Shown: in pieces, positions 12,489 to 22,041 of the stretch
How the letters are laid out: each line of letters starts with the position of its first letter
How positions within the stretch are numbered: position 1 is the stretch's first letter
DNA from: a virus
DNA length: 28,461 nucleotides
Reading direction: 5' to 3' (one strand)
Virus record (IMG/VR): IMGVR_UViG_3300006789_000113
Location: 1 to 28,461 of that record
Translations under genes and position numbers: made by a program
The notes under the pieces: generated by a model
What the model saw: the letters and a program-made list of their open reading frames with translations, nothing else
Told to the model about the DNA's origin: nothing
The model's database searches: none

Positions 12489-12788
12489 ATGGATAATCTA
12501 AGAAGTGAGTATTTAGGAATAGAAGTTAAGAGTGTAGATGATAATGGTAACGATAGCTGGAGTAGTCCAGAAGTAATACCAGCTGGTAGTCTTACTGGAG
12601 GTAATGCATTCATTGTTACATCAGGTCCAATTGAATTATGTAGTCAAGCAGATCAGGACGAGTTCTCAGCATTCTTTGCAGAGGGAGTTACTTGCGGTTT
12701 AAGTAAGAAAATAGGTAGTCGTTATAAGACTGCTATTAGAGGTGGAGGCTCATCAGCTAAGAAAGTTAACAGACCTAAAGCTGCTTAA
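12489..12788 (+). CDS. Unknown first early protein
   Basis: This 99-residue protein opens the rightward block. It begins MDNLRSEYLGIEVKSVDDNG, has two Cys (ELCSQAD and VTCGLSKK), and ends with basic RYKTAIRGGGSSAKKVNRPK. Its ribosome binding site (AAAGGAG) is strong and a hairpin follows it, so it may be made in large amounts early in infection. The internal Arg-Gly-Gly-Gly is unlike a modifier tail because 14 residues follow. No family is recognised. Confidence 0.65.
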   Translation: MDNLRSEYLGIEVKSVDDNGNDSWSSPEVIPAGSLTGGNAFIVTSGPIELCSQADQDEFSAFFAEGVTCGLSKKIGSRYKTAIRGGGSSAKKVNRPKAA

Positions 12789-12794
12789 CTATAG

Positions 12795-12818
12795 TAGGGA
12801 AGTGTAATAGCTTCCCTA
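12795..12818 (+). terminator. Intergenic hairpin after first early gene
   Basis: TAGGGAAG (12795-12802) pairs perfectly with CTTCCCTA (12811-12818) around an 8-nt loop. No T run follows, so it is a weak terminator, mRNA 3' stabiliser or processing site. It would let the first gene be expressed above the following ones. Confidence 0.55.
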
Positions 12819-12863
12819 TCTATCATTTAATACCCTACAATAGTCGTGAAGGAGGAAATACAT

Positions 12864-14212: not shown

Positions 14213-14399
14213 AGAAATTAAAAAATATCCATCTAAGTATTTTCCATATGAAAATAAAAGAAAGTTATTACATGCTTATATGTACAAGAAATATGGAAAT
14301 GGATGGGCTTGGTTCCAAGGAATAAGTCAAGGTAGAAGCAGAGGATCTAGTACATACAGAACGCCATGGCTAGATAAATTTAGGAGGACAGAGAAATGA
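14196..14399 (+). CDS. 67-aa basic unknown protein
   Basis: The protein begins MTERVREIKKYPSKYFPYEN and has aromatic, basic and Gly/Ser-rich parts (KYGNGWAWFQGISQGRSRGS). It is preceded by AAGGAGG within the previous gene and its stop overlaps the next start (ATGA). It is probably soluble and may bind nucleic acid. No family is recognised. Confidence 0.55.
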   Translation: MTERVREIKKYPSKYFPYENKRKLLHAYMYKKYGNGWAWFQGISQGRSRGSSTYRTPWLDKFRRTEK

Positions 14400-14812
14400 A
14401 TAACAATGAATACATTATGAGCGAATTTATTAATAGTTTATGTTTTGCTTCAGAGCAATTAATAGCTGAAAATAACTTAACATTAGATGAAAGAGTAATT
14501 ATCGTAAATAATATGCAGTCTATGTTACAAAAAAGATTGGAGAAAGGTGCTAAAGAATATGGCACACAAGTACCAATACTTACAGAAGAATGTCTCAAAG
14601 TCGATAGAGATAATCTTATGGAAGGAATAGAAGAATGTGTAGATGGTTTAGTTTATACGATAGCTGAAAGAATAAGAGCTACCGATACAAAAAATAAAGA
14701 ATACCATACATACATTAACAGATCAATAAGTAATTTGTGTTATTCTTTGCTTAACTTAGGTCAAGCAAGAGAGTTACAACGCAAGTTAAAATACGAAAAG
14801 AAAGAGGCGTAA
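14396..14812 (+). CDS. MazG-like all-alpha protein (candidate NTP pyrophosphohydrolase)
   Basis: This 138-residue helical protein shows a pattern used by small phage MazG/dUTPase-like proteins. It has RLEKGAKEYGTQVPI near residues 47-61, then NLMEGIEECVDGLVYTIAER at 73-92. The latter gives Glu76, Glu79, Glu80 and Asp83, matching ExxE and ExxD metal-binding positions. Such enzymes hydrolyse nucleoside triphosphates to monophosphates and pyrophosphate. The second half is a further long helix (YHTYINRSISNLCYSLL). It overlaps the gene before by ATGA and ends 2 nt before the ubiquitin-like modifier. The family call is from motif only; it could instead be a divergent unrelated helical protein. Confidence 0.5.
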   Translation: MNNNEYIMSEFINSLCFASEQLIAENNLTLDERVIIVNNMQSMLQKRLEKGAKEYGTQVPILTEECLKVDRDNLMEGIEECVDGLVYTIAERIRATDTKNKEYHTYINRSISNLCYSLLNLGQARELQRKLKYEKKEA

Positions 14813-14814
14813 AA

Positions 14815-15117
14815 ATGAGTGAGACTCAATCAACACCATTCAGTGGTGTAAAATACAAAGTGAATACAGAACAATGGATTACAGATATGAATGTACCAGC
14901 TCATGTTACAACAGTAGCAGAGTTTATTACATATTTGCAAACAGCAGATAGTAATTCATTTAGTTTAATTGGAGACGATAGTACAGTAAATGTAAATGTT
15001 AATCCAGTAAACAGGCAAGAAAGCTTAGGTCCTATTAGACCTGGAGCTGGAGATACAGATCCTGATGGTCAACTATGTTTTGTTGCTTTCAATAGAAACA
15101 GTAAACGTGGTGGATAA
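14815..15117 (+). CDS. Ubiquitin-like modifier ending in Gly-Gly
   Basis: This 100-residue protein is likely a beta-grasp modifier that is attached to targets through its C-terminus. Its last strand and tail, LCFVAFNRNSKRGG (87-100), mirror the final strand and Arg-Gly-Gly tail of ubiquitin, and the stop comes right after the second Gly. An N-terminal strand pair (GVKYKVNTEQWITDMNVP) is followed by a helix (VTTVAEFITYLQTAD at about 31-45), the beta-beta-alpha order of the fold. A Gly/Pro-rich loop (GPIRPGAGDTDPDG) precedes the last strand and is longer than in ubiquitin. The genes for E2-like, JAMM and E1-like proteins follow in order. No protease is needed to expose the Gly-Gly. Overall sequence identity to known modifiers is not evident, so the fold is inferred. 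Confidence 0.72.
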   Translation: MSETQSTPFSGVKYKVNTEQWITDMNVPAHVTTVAEFITYLQTADSNSFSLIGDDSTVNVNVNPVNRQESLGPIRPGAGDTDPDGQLCFVAFNRNSKRGG

Positions 15118-15132
15118 TAGTAAATAATAACC

Positions 15133-15157
15133 GAAGGGTAGCAATTAGCTGCCCTTC
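15133..15157 (+). terminator. Hairpin between modifier and E2-like genes
   Basis: GAAGGGTAGC (15133-15142) pairs with GCTGCCCTTC (15148-15157) around AATTA, with a single U-G pair. It fills most of the 57-nt gap. No T run follows. It may act as a partial terminator or 3' stabiliser, keeping the small modifier in excess over its enzymes. Confidence 0.6.
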
Positions 15158-15174: not shown

Positions 15175-16983
15175 ATGTGGATAAAAGAAAGTTGGAATGA
15201 TTTATCAATTGATTTAGATAATCTTTCACAAGAAATGATAATAGGGCCATCTAATCAAGTGGCTAAAGCTATTAAAAATGTTAACAGAAGGTTTATAACT
15301 GATACTTATGTTAACGGAAACAGAAGTATGTTAGAACCTATTAAACCTTTAGGTTTTACAAGAACATATAGATGGCAACCAGGATACAAAGAAATTGTAA
15401 AAGAAGTATTAATTACAAGACTTCATCAATACAACAAAACTGGTAGCTTAGAAACTATGTTTAACAGAGATGAGCATATGTCTTGGAATAAAAAGAATTT
15501 TAAAAGAGCGTTAATTAATATAGAAAATCAATTAAAAGTTCTTAGAAATCAAGGCATTACAACAGATAGAGATCTTGAAGTTGCTAAAGAAACTATAAAT
15601 AATACTTTTAGTTTATTTAAAGAAAAAGTAAATGAAGCAAAGTTAATATTTGATTTAGTACCTAACTTAGAGCATGAATTTTATTTTGAATATCAAACAT
15701 TCGATAGGTTAACAGATGAATCATTAACATCATCACAAAAAGATATGTTAAAGTTTCTAACAGGTAATGTATGTTTAAATTTAAAATACAAAAATCCTAA
15801 AATAACAGTAGTGAATGTAGATAAGCCTGATATAGAAGCTTATGGTGTAGTAAATTTAGAAGATGATTTATATTTATCTTTCAATATACCATTGTATCTT
15901 TTGTTTCAAGAGTTACAAGTTAAAAGCTTTGATCAGTTAAATCATAATACATTATATTCAGGTAGTAAATATAACATAGAAAATGAAATAGATAGATATC
16001 TAATATCTAATGGTTTGTCTACTAACAGACAACATTTTAGATTTGCTAATCATATTTCATCACATTACTCAGAAAGCAATAATATTAAACATCCATTTGT
16101 AAGTGGCAACAATGGTGCAGAAACATTAAGAATGTTTGATCTTGAGCTCAATGGGAAAAATGTATGTTATGGTAATATGGATAATGAAATAAAAGATGCC
16201 TTTACAAGATTAGATTTTGTAGATTTAGTAAGATTATTAGATCAATGGCAAACTTATTGCATAACAACTACTAATCCATTAAACAATATTAGTTATAGTT
16301 TAACTACATTACCAGCAGATCAATGGGATGAAAGAATCTTAATAGATTCAGGTCAGATGTTAATTAAAACTATGCATGAAAATGTATTATCTATGCATGG
16401 TGTATCTAATGTTCATAAGCCAGGACCTTATGCTACTGATAGTAGTTGGAGACATCAAAGCATGTCTAATGCTGTATTTGTAAAAGAGCTAGGTTATAAG
16501 TGGGATGATGATAGTGAAGTGTATACATTTGGCTGGGAATTTACAGACAAGAATTGGATACCTTCTATTATGCAGCTTAGAGATGTTTGTGATCCTGACT
16601 TAACTATAGATACAGTAGAGCCATTTCATGTAGAACAATTACAAAACTATTTGTTTGACAGTATACAAGCATCTGTAGATATGTTAGATACAGATAAATG
16701 TCTTACTAGAAACTATGGTTTATATAATGACATGGTTAGAGTGTTAAATACAGTATATGGTGAAGATAGTCCTTACAAAATGAAAGGATTATTTAAAGTA
16801 GAAGAAACTGTAGAACAAAGCAATGATTCAACTTTAGATGAAGTTATAGACAATCTAAATGAACCATTTGTTTATGCAGAAGAATCTGACTTACCATTTG
16901 GAACAGATAATGAAACAATAACAGTTCAATCAGCATCAGAAATAATGACTGCTATGGAACAACAATTAATGGAAAGAGGTTAA
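15175..16983 (+). CDS. Large protein with E2-like (ubiquitin-conjugating) region
   Basis: This is a 602-residue protein with no overall match that I recognise. Residues about 300-375 carry the E2 active-site layout. His306-Pro307-Phe-Val stands for the HPN element. NVCYGN at 329-334 supplies a candidate catalytic Cys331. A helix (DFVDLVRLLDQWQTYC) follows, then TTTNPLNN at 364-371, like the PNxxxPL element after the E2 cysteine. Beta-prone segments precede it (GNVCLNLKYKNPKITVVNV, DLYLSFNIPLYL). The spacing from His to Cys is longer than in eukaryotic E2s. Residues 1-190 are mostly helical and residues 380-540 are Trp/Asp-rich (ELGYKWDDDSEVYTFGWEF); the tail is acidic. The flanks may choose substrates. 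It starts after a GGAG site and ends 1 nt before the JAMM gene. If correct, it takes the modifier from the E1-like enzyme and passes it to a target. Confidence 0.62.
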   Translation: MWIKESWNDLSIDLDNLSQEMIIGPSNQVAKAIKNVNRRFITDTYVNGNRSMLEPIKPLGFTRTYRWQPGYKEIVKEVLITRLHQYNKTGSLETMFNRDEHMSWNKKNFKRALINIENQLKVLRNQGITTDRDLEVAKETINNTFSLFKEKVNEAKLIFDLVPNLEHEFYFEYQTFDRLTDESLTSSQKDMLKFLTGNVCLNLKYKNPKITVVNVDKPDIEAYGVVNLEDDLYLSFNIPLYLLFQELQVKSFDQLNHNTLYSGSKYNIENEIDRYLISNGLSTNRQHFRFANHISSHYSESNNIKHPFVSGNNGAETLRMFDLELNGKNVCYGNMDNEIKDAFTRLDFVDLVRLLDQWQTYCITTTNPLNNISYSLTTLPADQWDERILIDSGQMLIKTMHENVLSMHGVSNVHKPGPYATDSSWRHQSMSNAVFVKELGYKWDDDSEVYTFGWEFTDKNWIPSIMQLRDVCDPDLTIDTVEPFHVEQLQNYLFDSIQASVDMLDTDKCLTRNYGLYNDMVRVLNTVYGEDSPYKMKGLFKVEETVEQSNDSTLDEVIDNLNEPFVYAEESDLPFGTDNETITVQSASEIMTAMEQQLMERG

Positions 16984-16984
16984 A

Positions 16985-17854
16985 ATGAGTAAATTCATAA
17001 TGTCTAATGAAGATTGGACAACATTACAACACTATGCTAGACATGCTTGGGATGAATATCAAAGTGAAATAGGTGGATATATGGTTGTTAAGTATATAAA
17101 TAATCAATTTGTATTCACTGAACCTGTAATACTAGAGCAAGAAATTACAGCTGGTAATACAGATATAACTAAAGAAGCAATGGGTAAGTACTTTACTGAA
17201 ACAGAAATTAAACATGGTAAAGAACCTTATTGGCTATGCTGGTGGCATAGTCATCATACTATGGGTGTATTTTGGTCAGCTACAGATACTACTGCTATTG
17301 AACAAGATCAACATACTGACTATGACTTTTCATTAGTTATAAACCTAAAAGAAGAACAGATACTACGCATAAGTGACTGGAAAACAGGTACGCAAGTTGA
17401 TACAGTAGTAGAAATAGAAAGTAAAACTGTAGAAATGCCTAAGTATATTAGTGACAATGTGGCAGAGTTATGTACAAAACCATCATCAGTTATAAAAACT
17501 AGTGTAGGTTGGGGTAGTAATTGGGATACAAGTCGTAAAATAACTAAGAATCAAGTTCAGTTGTGGGCAGATAAAGAAGACGAAGAAAAAGTACAACTTG
17601 AAGCAGAAATAGATGATATCTTACAAGATTATACTATGGATGATGATTACAGCATGTGTCGTAAACGATTAGGTAATTTAAATAGAAAGCTCGGTGCAAA
17701 GAAGAGTGAGTTAAGAGTAGGTGTTCTTGACAAGGTTATGTTAGATTCAGTAATTAATATAGTATTAGCTGATTCATACATATACAGCAAAGGAACAAAC
17801 TTTGACATAAATACCATGGTAGAACAAACAACATGGGAAGGGAGTTTTAAATGA
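16985..17854 (+). CDS. JAMM/MPN metalloprotease (deconjugase candidate)
   Basis: This 289-residue protein has a complete JAMM zinc site: Glu28 in SEIGGYMVV, then WWHSHHTMGVFWSATD at 86-101, giving His88, His90, Ser98 and Asp101 with the exact H-x-H-x7-S-x2-D spacing. The family cleaves isopeptide or peptide bonds after ubiquitin-like modifiers. The catalytic domain fills about residues 1-145. The rest is an acidic helical extension (EDEEKVQLEAEIDDILQDY) of unknown role. Because the modifier already ends in Gly-Gly, removal of modifier from targets is more likely than maturation. It overlaps the E1-like gene by ATGA. Acting against a related host system is an alternative. Confidence 0.88.
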   Translation: MSKFIMSNEDWTTLQHYARHAWDEYQSEIGGYMVVKYINNQFVFTEPVILEQEITAGNTDITKEAMGKYFTETEIKHGKEPYWLCWWHSHHTMGVFWSATDTTAIEQDQHTDYDFSLVINLKEEQILRISDWKTGTQVDTVVEIESKTVEMPKYISDNVAELCTKPSSVIKTSVGWGSNWDTSRKITKNQVQLWADKEDEEKVQLEAEIDDILQDYTMDDDYSMCRKRLGNLNRKLGAKKSELRVGVLDKVMLDSVINIVLADSYIYSKGTNFDINTMVEQTTWEGSFK

Positions 17855-18501
17855 ATGAAAGATACTCAGGAATAATAAATAGTTTCGATGAGTATGCATA
17901 TCATTTCTTAGGTTGCGGTGCTATAGGTAGTGCCGCAGCTGTAACATTAGTAAAGATGGGTGCAAGTCGTATCTATCTTTATGATATGGATATAGTAGAA
18001 AGTCCTAACATAGGAGTTTCAATATATGATAGAAATGATTTAAATAAATCCAAAGTAGATGCATTAAAAGATAGATTGATTGCTATTAATCCTTCAATAG
18101 ATGTAGAGTGTTATAATCAAAGGTTTGAAAGATATCAACCAGAAGATAAAAACATAGTCATACTAGGATTTGACTCAATGAAAGATAGATTAGAAGCAGT
18201 TCAAAATATAATCAAAGATAAAAAACCAGACGTTCTTATAGACGGAAGAATGGGTGCTGAACATTATCAACAGTATACTTTGAAACAACCTACTCTATCA
18301 CAATACAAATCACATTGGTATAGCGATGATGAAGGTGATGATGATCCTTGCAATGCCAGAGCTACTAGTTACTGTAGTAATATGACAGGTAGTTTTATAT
18401 GTAATAATATAAAACAGATTATTAAAGAAGAACCTTACTTGAAAGAATTTTCTTTTAATTTTCAAACAATGTCATTAAACTCTACAGGATTTGTAAGTTA
18501 A
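17851..18501 (+). CDS. E1-like adenylating enzyme (ThiF/MoeB/UBA fold)
   Basis: This 216-residue protein is a short Rossmann-type activating enzyme. The nucleotide loop is LGCGAIGSAAA at 20-30. IYLYDMDIVESPNIG at 41-55 supplies Asp45 and Asp47 of the ribose-binding strand, and Lys66/Lys68 in DLNKSKVDAL match the conserved lysine. GFDSMKDR at 106-113 gives the conserved Asp108. A Cys-rich part follows: DDPCNARATSYCSNMTGS, with Cys167, Cys175 and Cys184 as candidates for the thioester. The usual Asn-Leu-x-Arg arginine is not present at its normal place (Asn53-Ile-Gly-Val). The protein is shorter than MoeB or eukaryotic E1 and has no Cys or ubiquitin-fold domain. It would adenylate the modifier's last Gly. 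It is the last gene of the cassette and is followed by a strong hairpin. Confidence 0.85.
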   Translation: MNERYSGIINSFDEYAYHFLGCGAIGSAAAVTLVKMGASRIYLYDMDIVESPNIGVSIYDRNDLNKSKVDALKDRLIAINPSIDVECYNQRFERYQPEDKNIVILGFDSMKDRLEAVQNIIKDKKPDVLIDGRMGAEHYQQYTLKQPTLSQYKSHWYSDDEGDDDPCNARATSYCSNMTGSFICNNIKQIIKEEPYLKEFSFNFQTMSLNSTGFVS

Positions 18502-20012: not shown

Positions 20013-20266
20013 TGACAGCTCAAGACATCGTAATTGCTTGGATTAAAAGTATAAAAGCTAAAAGTCCTATGTTTTATAGTTACGATTTGGAAAGCAGCTT
20101 ACCATTGTATGGTAGGCTTGCTCACCAAAAATTACACACTGCAAGTACTTATGCTAGGGCATTTAGAAAGATACGTGAAAGTAATTCTTTAAAAGCACAC
20201 GGCATAAGTTTAGAAGAAATTGAACATACGAATAGGAAAGTAAAAGGATGGAAAATAACAAAGTAG
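20012..20266 (+). CDS. 84-aa basic protein, winged-helix-like
   Basis: The protein begins MTAQDIVIAWIKSIKAKSPM and is helical and basic (LHTASTYARAFRKIRESNSL). The pattern helix, helix, recognition helix, ending with a short strand pair (NRKVKGWKITK) fits a winged-helix DNA binder. It overlaps its neighbours on both sides (TAATG and 19 nt), so it is coupled to the SSB-like and primase-helicase genes and may help load them on DNA. The fold is inferred. Confidence 0.5.
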   Translation: MTAQDIVIAWIKSIKAKSPMFYSYDLESSLPLYGRLAHQKLHTASTYARAFRKIRESNSLKAHGISLEEIEHTNRKVKGWKITK

Positions 20267-22041
20267 TAGAGGTAGTTCAAGACGGTTTATCAAATAGAAA
20301 TACAATAATACCATTTGATGATTATCTTGAATTAGAAAAAAAGAATGCTTTTAATAAAGAAATGTATAAGTCATATTATATGTTTGATGATACGTTTACA
20401 ACACATGTCATAACTAATAAAAGTGTTAAAGGATATAACGGTTTAGTGTATCCTAATAGAATAATTATAGATGTGGATAAAGGAGATATTGATGGAGAAA
20501 ATCTACAAAATTATCTTAGACATGTTTGTAATGAGTTGTTTGATTTTGGTATTGATAGCAACCACGTTAATGTTTGGTTTAGTGGTAGCGGTTATCATGT
20601 CGAGTTACTTAACATTTTTGGGTTTCAACCTAATAAAAACTTACATGTTAAAGTTAAAGCAACTCTAAGTGAACATTTTAGTTTTGGTGATAACATATAT
20701 GATAAAACTAGAATCATAAGATCTAATTGGTCGTTAAATAAAAAGACTAATTTGTATAAAGTGTGGATACCTTTAGAAGATATCTGGACTATATCATATG
20801 ATGAAGTTTGTAAGATAGCTAAATCAAAGCAATCTTATAATCAATATGTTAAAACAAAACCAAACTTCTATGCAACATTAAACTCACAAGACGTTATAAT
20901 AGATCCATATTTACAATCATCTATTATATCAAGTCTTAACAATACAGCTAGTCTCACACCAACTAGAAGCGGTGAAACTAATTCAGTAGTTACATGTGTT
21001 CAGCATATATTTAATGAAGGACCTAGTCAAGGTTCAAGAAATAAAAACATGATGCGTATGATAAGTTCTTGGAAAAGAGCTGGAATACCATTCATAGTTA
21101 CATTAAACGGTATGATTAAATGGGCACAAAATGAATTAAATACATCAGAAATCGAAAGAACTGTTATGAATGTATACGACAATCAATATATATATGGTTG
21201 TGACGATGCAATTTTAATGGAATATTGCGATCCAAAATGTATACACTTTAAACGTAAAGATTATGTACTTGATATTAGAGATGTAGATTCATTAGAAGAT
21301 ACATTTACAGAGTACATTATGAAAGACTTTACAGAGCGTAGTGTAAACATTAATGATGTATTTCCAGGTGGACCTGATTACTTGTTTAAACCTGGAGAAC
21401 TAGTTGTCTTTAGTGGTGATACTGGTATGGGTAAGACTGCTTTTGTACAAAACTTAGTAACACAGTCAAAGAAAGATACTTTGTTTCTATCATTAGAAAT
21501 GAATGAAATATTAATTTGGAGACGATTTGTTCAGATAGCTAAAGGACAAACAGCTGAGTGGGTACAAAATCAATACAAAAGCAATCCAGATTTTAGTGCT
21601 AAAGACATGTTAGATCATATTAAAATTATGGTTATAGCACCAGAGATTGAAGCTGTTAAGAAAGTAGTAGCACAGTATCAACCTAACATACTTGTTGTAG
21701 ATACAACAGACGAAATGCAAGTAGATAGATTTGATGGTGAAATACAAAAACAAAATGTAGTTATAGATGCTTTAAAACAAATAGCACAACGTAACAACAC
21801 TTTAATATTTGCTGTTCATCATTTGAATAAAGCTAGTGCAGCACAAGGTACTGTAGGGTTGCATTCATTAAAAGGTTCGTCTAATGTAGTACAAAAAGCT
21901 GATAAAGTTATTGTACTTAAAGGAAATCGTAACGAAGTTTATAGAACTATTCAGTCAGAAAAATCAAGAGACGATGGTAAGCTAGAATTTGTTACAGAAT
22001 TTCAACCTGAAACAATGACATTTAAACGAATAGAAATATAA
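20248..22041 (+). CDS. Primase-helicase: archaeo-eukaryotic primase fused to RecA/DnaB-type helicase
   Basis: This 597-residue protein has two catalytic parts. The N-terminal archaeo-eukaryotic primase shows IIIDVD at 72-77 (Asp75, Asp77), then WFSGSGYHVEL with His117, then KTRIIRSNWSLNKKTN at 153-168, the three usual primase motifs. Cys250, Cys318, Cys327 and Cys331 with His333 (YCDPKCIHF) look like a metal site, as in PriCT or PriL-type domains. The helicase has Walker A GDTGMGKT at 390-397, Walker B ILVVDTTDE at 481-489 and a motif with HHLNK at 524-528. One chain would both prime and unwind DNA. No polymerase gene is seen in the window, so a host polymerase or one outside the window would extend the primers. 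Confidence 0.85.
   Translation: MENNKVVEVVQDGLSNRNTIIPFDDYLELEKKNAFNKEMYKSYYMFDDTFTTHVITNKSVKGYNGLVYPNRIIIDVDKGDIDGENLQNYLRHVCNELFDFGIDSNHVNVWFSGSGYHVELLNIFGFQPNKNLHVKVKATLSEHFSFGDNIYDKTRIIRSNWSLNKKTNLYKVWIPLEDIWTISYDEVCKIAKSKQSYNQYVKTKPNFYATLNSQDVIIDPYLQSSIISSLNNTASLTPTRSGETNSVVTCVQHIFNEGPSQGSRNKNMMRMISSWKRAGIPFIVTLNGMIKWAQNELNTSEIERTVMNVYDNQYIYGCDDAILMEYCDPKCIHFKRKDYVLDIRDVDSLEDTFTEYIMKDFTERSVNINDVFPGGPDYLFKPGELVVFSGDTGMGKTAFVQNLVTQSKKDTLFLSLEMNEILIWRRFVQIAKGQTAEWVQNQYKSNPDFSAKDMLDHIKIMVIAPEIEAVKKVVAQYQPNILVVDTTDEMQVDRFDGEIQKQNVVIDALKQIAQRNNTLIFAVHHLNKASAAQGTVGLHSLKGSSNVVQKADKVIVLKGNRNEVYRTIQSEKSRDDGKLEFVTEFQPETMTFKRIEI

Follow-up and report, generated by a model that had tools for sequence, protein, structure and literature searches.

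Four adjacent genes on a viral contig probably encode a phage-owned pathway for the reversible conjugation of a ubiquitin-like (Ubl) modifier, in which a JAMM/MPN+ metallopeptidase would cut after the Gly-Gly of the modifier, thereby freeing it from conjugates and trimming C-terminal tails where these are present. The window, by which we mean the whole stretch of DNA that was analysed, is a contig of 28,461 bases that is recorded as a virus, and its minus strand carries open reading frames (ORFs) that we read as large terminase-like, portal-like and capsid-like. On the plus strand, the operon begins with the Ubl ORF (14815-15117, 100 aa), the ATG of which is preceded by AGAGG, and continues with a gene for an E2-like protein with an invariant cysteine (15175-16983, 602 aa), a JAMM gene that lies two genes downstream of the modifier (16985-17854, 289 aa), and a gene for an E1/ThiF-like activating enzyme (17851-18501, 216 aa).

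Successive scans of viral contigs returned 13 close operons and then 314 stretches encoding relatives of the E1; 80 loci were kept, and from these 52 distinct complete modifiers and operons were extracted. The order Ubl-E2-JAMM-E1 is constant across the 13 close loci and about 40 more distant viral ones. Downstream of the operon in the window is a gene for a DnaB-type primase/helicase (20248-22041), and the operon sits within the replication gene region of the phage; the pathway may have a role in replication or in host take-over. A tail-assembly function for the JAMM, of the kind known as lambda TAPI-JAB, was rejected in view of the E1 and E2-like genes and the replication-gene neighbours.

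Between the Ubl and E2-like genes lies an RNA hairpin of 10 pairs (15133-15157, plus strand), which is kept in 12 of 12 aligned loci, with 95% of cells paired as compared with 48-64% when the pairing is slid, and two of its pairs show changes on both sides. As no T run follows downstream, the hairpin is not a simple intrinsic terminator; it may set the ratio of Ubl to enzymes via mRNA processing or partial termination. Two other features were noted upstream of the operon. An alpha-helical protein with EExxD-like motifs (14396-14812), found directly 5' of the Ubl gene in the close loci, has a weak match to phrog_7609 (E 4e-4) and is MazG-like by eye only. At 12489-12819, an ORF of 99 aa has an RGGG within it, close to the C-terminus, and after the ORF comes a hairpin that resembles a terminator (12794-12819); the counterparts of the ORF at other loci show no sequence conservation.

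The modifier and the transfer enzymes

The modifier ends in ...CFVAFNRNSKRGG (Lys-Arg-Gly-Gly), with Gly99-Gly100 encoded at 15109-15114 and the stop codon at 15115-15117 backed by two more in-frame stops (TAA TAG TAA). The observation with which this work began, a stop placed directly after Gly-Gly, is thus borne out in the window. The Gly-Gly did not arise by chance, as both glycines belong to the only 10 columns that are invariant among 13 close homologues, which share 23-83% identity with the window Ubl. When that Ubl was scanned with Pfam, PHROGs, NCBIfam and PADLOC, nothing usable emerged. An AlphaFold2 model built from the 13 homologues (pLDDT 81.8, pTM 0.71) supports the ubiquitin-like character that had been assigned to the modifier from its letters: in Foldseek it matched ubiquitin, NEDD8, MoaD, FAT10 and LC3 chains (best E 7e-3), and in VIA-align it reached Z 8.3 to MoaD (1nvi_D; rmsd 2.5, 71 aligned), Z 7.2 to SAMP1 and Z 7.1 to Urm1. 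At the level of the family, Pfam ThiS is matched by 11 of 28 aligned members (best E 1.9e-5), and the best PDB matches of the family profile are to MoaD. The wider family also includes compact homologues of 65-80 residues, the profile of which finds window-type Ubls (L018, E 2.7e-4; L021, E 1.2e-3; L001, 0.04) and so ties the two groups together. The model and these matches support a predicted beta-grasp fold of the MoaD/ThiS/ubiquitin type for the window Ubl.

The likeness of the last residues to those of ubiquitin is more limited than it had appeared. Gly-Gly is present in all 52 distinct homologues, but the KRGG end is restricted to the window, L001 and L003, and the family consensus, K-[TV]-Gly-Gly, is by its residues nearer to MoaD than to the LRLRGG of ubiquitin. 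Similarly, the Gly/Pro loop ahead of the last strand, which had been called unusual, is indeed an insertion, but it is the property of a subclade and is missing in the compact homologues.

The activating enzyme matches ThiF in Pfam (E 6.6e-20) and has the marks of a Rossmann-type adenylation domain, namely the G-x-G-x-x-G motif and the Asp and Arg residues. R4, the stretch G21-C-G-A-I-G-S27 (GCGAIGS), D45/D47 and D108 are invariant in 52 of 52 sequences, as are Cys167 (18349-18351) and Cys175 (18373-18375), the former of which aligns with an invariant cysteine of the crAss homologues described below; either cysteine may be the catalytic one for thioester transfer. Its PDB matches are UBA6, UBA5, MccB, MoeB and ThiF, the first two being the best.

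The 602-aa product of the second gene has a catalytic-type cysteine following an HP motif, as is found in E2 (UBC-like) enzymes. This candidate catalytic residue, Cys331 (codon 16165-16167), and Pro368 are present in 50 of 50 homologues, and Pro307 of the HP motif in 49 of the 50. The window reads HPF..VCYGN where the family has HP[FY]..[VI]C[LFY][GD]; compact relatives read HPYI...YGTVCLD, and L119 has HPYIASGRYNTERYGTVCLD, the E2 signature. Profiles of known E2 and Prok-E2 families did not place the protein among them: its Pfam matches include no E2 model, scans of the window protein with PHROGs, NCBIfam and PADLOC yielded nothing usable, and profile searches of the PDB with 13 and with 17 sequences returned no match. 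Foldseek likewise found no match for its structural model (pLDDT 75.6). When the model was compared with 174 chains in VIA-align, residues ~142-378 weakly matched UBC/RWD chains (Z 3.0-4.1), among them Ube2e2 (Z 3.7, 122/143 residues) and the E2 of an E1-E2-ubiquitin complex (Z 3.0); other weak matches were CENP-P, a SEA subunit and THO, which we take to be RWD proteins. It is on the motif, the gene order and these weak fold matches that we regard the protein as an E2-like carrier, and this is the least certain part of our reading.

The four genes might be suspected of encoding a sulfur or amino-acid carrier pathway, either of the MoaD/ThiS type with a ThiF-like enzyme or akin to CysO/Mec+, a mycobacterial pair that serves as an analogue of the carrier type. 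The cargo of the modifier would then be a thiocarboxylate or an amino acid, with release of the product falling to the JAMM. A modifier that is closest to MoaD by both fold and family profile, and an E1 that is short and ThiF-like, are in keeping with such a pathway. However, every complete locus encodes a large protein in which an E2-type cysteine is invariant, neighbours of the rhodanese, cysteine synthase, MoaE or ThiG kind are not seen in the window, and the E1 finds its best structural counterparts in UBA6 and UBA5; we therefore expect the likelihood of a carrier function to be low.

Variable modifier ends and a constant JAMM

The sequence-only reading held that the gene encodes the modifier in its mature form, such that no tail must be removed. 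This is true of the window and of 20 other distinct homologues (21 of 52 in all), in which the stop codon comes straight after Gly-Gly. As a rule for the family it fails: the other 31 carry a tail of 1-60 residues past Gly-Gly, and in place of the strict ends that might have been expected, alignment of the homologues shows a constant Gly-Gly followed by variable ends, the very outcome that the sequence-only reading had named as counting against it. The single-residue tails are Y, Q, K and C, and those of two or three residues are IV, EK, CLN, NLN, DLN, DVE, DAR, DNA, DQS, KGK, DKE, TNI, EAK and KTI (L064, for example, ends KTGG-DNA, with the tail Asp-Asn-Ala); longer tails have 5-11 residues, 31 residues (L128) or 60 residues (L115 and L127). 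The 60-residue extension past KTGG is conserved between the two modifiers that have it (L115:674-1111 and L127:2075-2512), and it resembles a small domain more than it does a random tail.

The E1+JAMM tree requires a minimum of 10 changes between the tailed and tail-less states, of which 9 are forced by well-supported branches, and the tree of the 13 close operons requires 3. Even close relatives differ, as is seen for L015 (KGG-stop), L014 (KGG-Y) and L017 (KGG-DVE). In some modifiers the tail-less state may be recent, as these adjoin tailed ones on the tree. Six loci (L097, L104, L107, L108, L119 and L120) make up a deep clade that is tail-less throughout, has long internal branches and has kept its JAMM. 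With 31 of the 52 modifiers tailed, about 10 changes of state and the closest relatives differing, comparison of the homologues makes it very probable that the JAMM family, taken as a whole, matures precursors.

The JAMM itself passes the Pfam cut-off for Prok-JAB (E 1.2e-6), and its best sequence match in the PDB is a Caldiarchaeum Rpn11-like protein. Its zinc motif consists of Glu28 and His88-Ser-His90-x7-Ser98-x2-Asp101 (17246-17287), and Glu28, His88, His90, Ser98 and Asp101 are intact in 52 of 52 JAMMs. Furthermore, a JAMM with an intact motif stands directly before the E1 in 68 of the 68 E1 loci in which 1,200 bases or more are available upstream of that gene. Pairwise dN/dS in the catalytic domain, which is a rough measure at dS > 1, is 0.05-0.15 for tail-less pairs and 0.03-0.23 for tailed pairs; for the whole JAMM, the window compared with L001/L003 gives about 0.22. 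As tail-less lineages keep both the catalytic residues and the same low dN/dS, the JAMM has a selected role that is independent of the tail. Judged from these codon comparisons, the pattern shows a selected function beyond maturation, with the proviso that purifying selection indicates that the enzyme is needed and not which bond it cuts. From what is known of the JAMM family, this tail-independent role is most likely the removal of the modifier from conjugates. The suggestion that the JAMM is not needed for maturation can as such be retained for the window and its tail-less relatives and not for the family, while the suggestion that it is probably a deconjugase is now better supported by the motif, the retention at every locus and the dN/dS values, though not as its sole role, trimming being added to it.

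Several JAMM relatives have been characterised. CsRpn11 acts on conjugates, and it also takes nine residues off the archaeal ubiquitin precursor by a cut that falls exactly behind Gly-Gly (PMC6043591). HvJAMM1 takes SAMP1 off lysine conjugates and cleaves linear SAMP1-MoaE as well, behind the terminal glycine (PMC4443979). In CBASS, conjugates of the CD-NTase are the substrate of Cap3, a JAB isopeptidase (PMC10097602), and the JAB of the Bil operon processes the BilA precursor, exposing a C-terminal glycine (PMC11354881). That characterised relatives work on protein conjugates bears upon a second alternative, in which conjugation does occur and the JAMM acts mainly on modifier bound to the E2 or E1, or on stray adducts with small nucleophiles, as a means of proofreading and recycling rather than of release from targets. 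Such an activity would account for the strict retention of the JAMM irrespective of the tail and does not require a specific target, and the large extra domains of the E2-like protein could themselves be modified; set against the known substrates of the relatives, we nevertheless hold it to be improbable. Last, it is very unlikely that the JAMM is a precursor trimmer only, dispensable and not yet lost where modifiers have recently been truncated: the 31 tailed homologues and the frequent changes of state, even among L014, L015 and L017, would suit this, but the wholly tail-less clade with its long internal branches, the lack of any locus without a JAMM among the 68, a core that is equally constrained in tail-less and tailed pairs, and the value of about 0.22 for the whole window JAMM argue against it.

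The proposed pathway and its distribution

In the reversible conjugation pathway that we favour, the E1 would activate the modifier and transfer it to the E2-like protein, after which it would be conjugated to proteins. The JAMM would act as a general Gly-Gly hydrolase that cuts directly after Gly-Gly, and its isopeptidase action would remove conjugates in all of the phages. As the modifier of the window phage is encoded in mature form, conjugates can be the only substrates of its JAMM, which would accordingly serve deconjugation and recycling of the modifier; in the tailed relatives, the same JAMM most likely trims the precursor too. We would put at about an even chance the broader proposition that a large group of uncultivated phages runs a complete and reversible Ubl system of its own out of the replication gene region, tagging phage or host proteins during infection. 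Whether the tag is made mature or as a precursor would then be free to evolve, as trimming and deconjugation are both the work of one JAMM. The natural mix of tailed and tail-less modifiers makes the question of whether the JAMM is a maturase, a deconjugase or both testable by comparison. In the case of the window, trypsin should leave at the KRGG end the same Gly-Gly remnant on lysine as it does with ubiquitin, and existing remnant antibodies could therefore find the targets.

With regard to distribution, the E1 was matched by the 314 viral stretches and had no match in plasmids, and the window JAMM and E2-like protein had no match in the phage-record collection. Among 84,980 species genomes of bacteria and archaea, two scans with a few peptide patterns found, at that sensitivity, no relatives of the JAMM or E1. 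The apparently complete Ubl pathway is as such apparently confined to phages at the sensitivity used. A literature search, with most subscription literature lying outside it, found no paper describing this phage system.

More distant relatives are found in crAss-like phages and in Flavobacterium phage Fpv3, in which the E1 and JAMM are homologous to those of the window (profile probability 99.9 and 96.6). The order there, gp79 to gp76, is (Ubl?)-(HSH..C[LT]G protein)-JAMM-ThiF, and in crAss-like records the cluster is flanked by a DNA primase and a uracil-DNA glycosylase. The first protein, gp79, has an N-terminal domain running to a conserved KS-Gly and then about 110-220 aa more, and gp78 carries the motif HSH...C[LT]G. 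Profile comparison detected no homology of the window Ubl with gp79 or of the E2-like protein with gp78 (the comparison of A14 with A10 gave a short helix match only); from position and motif, we infer that gp79 and gp78 are the Ubl and E2 equivalents. In uncultured phage cr106_1 (L041:3199-4402), an HNH endonuclease gene splits the crAss gp79-like gene, and the N-terminal Ubl-like ORF ends KKIKSGKF. Another, more distant viral contig (L039:6642-9418) has the same gene order, a MoaD-like Ubl that ends QAG-stop, with a single glycine, and an E2-like protein that is unfused and contains RPHWSVYEGGKICQGEW; profile comparison found no link of the L039 proteins to the window Ubl or E2.

Comparison with known systems

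In bacteria, Ubl conjugation has been described chiefly for defence operons (CBASS, Bil); here an apparently full pathway is owned by phages. The Bil system (BilABCD) resembles the phage system in that a Ubl, an E2, an E1 and a JAB protease are encoded in one operon. However, BilA contains two Ubl domains in tandem, and the E1 of that system, BilD, is long, has two lobes and includes a Cys domain, whereas the phage modifier has one Ubl domain and the 216-aa E1 is too short for a two-lobed BilD, and as such the phage system does not belong to Bil; PADLOC returned generic JAB and E1-E2 models for the window proteins and no Bil model among the matches listed. Furthermore, Bil is an anti-phage defence, and the phage system is carried by a phage, outside a defence island.

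The CsUb-CsRpn11 pair of Caldiarchaeum provides the best PDB match of the JAMM, and CsRpn11 both processes the precursor and deconjugates. CsUb, though, is an archaeal ubiquitin with a nine-residue tail, and the phage Ubl, E2 and E1 are unrelated to that system in detail. In Haloferax, SAMP1 and HvJAMM1 likewise combine a MoaD-like modifier ending in Gly-Gly with a JAMM that frees it from lysines; unlike the phage system, the pair as described (PMC4443979) operates without an E2.

Close in composition, too, are the bacterial E1-E2-JAB-Ubl operons of types 6a-6e (Iyer, Burroughs and Aravind 2006, PMC1779556). Type 6d in particular is like the phage system in its separate small Ubl with a conserved C-terminal glycine, its E2-like protein with a conserved cysteine, its JAB and its rhodanese-less E1 (PMC1779556). 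It has in addition an alpha-helical protein and a JAB-N domain, neither of which was identified in the phage system. The latter differs further from these bacterial operons in being phage-encoded, in its location in a replication gene region, in its order of Ubl-E2-JAMM-E1 and in its E2-like proteins, which have 430-840 aa in the phage family and no Prok-E2 match in Pfam. With these differences, the phage pathway is a variant of the known bacterial Ubl-E2-JAB-E1 operon type (PMC1779556).
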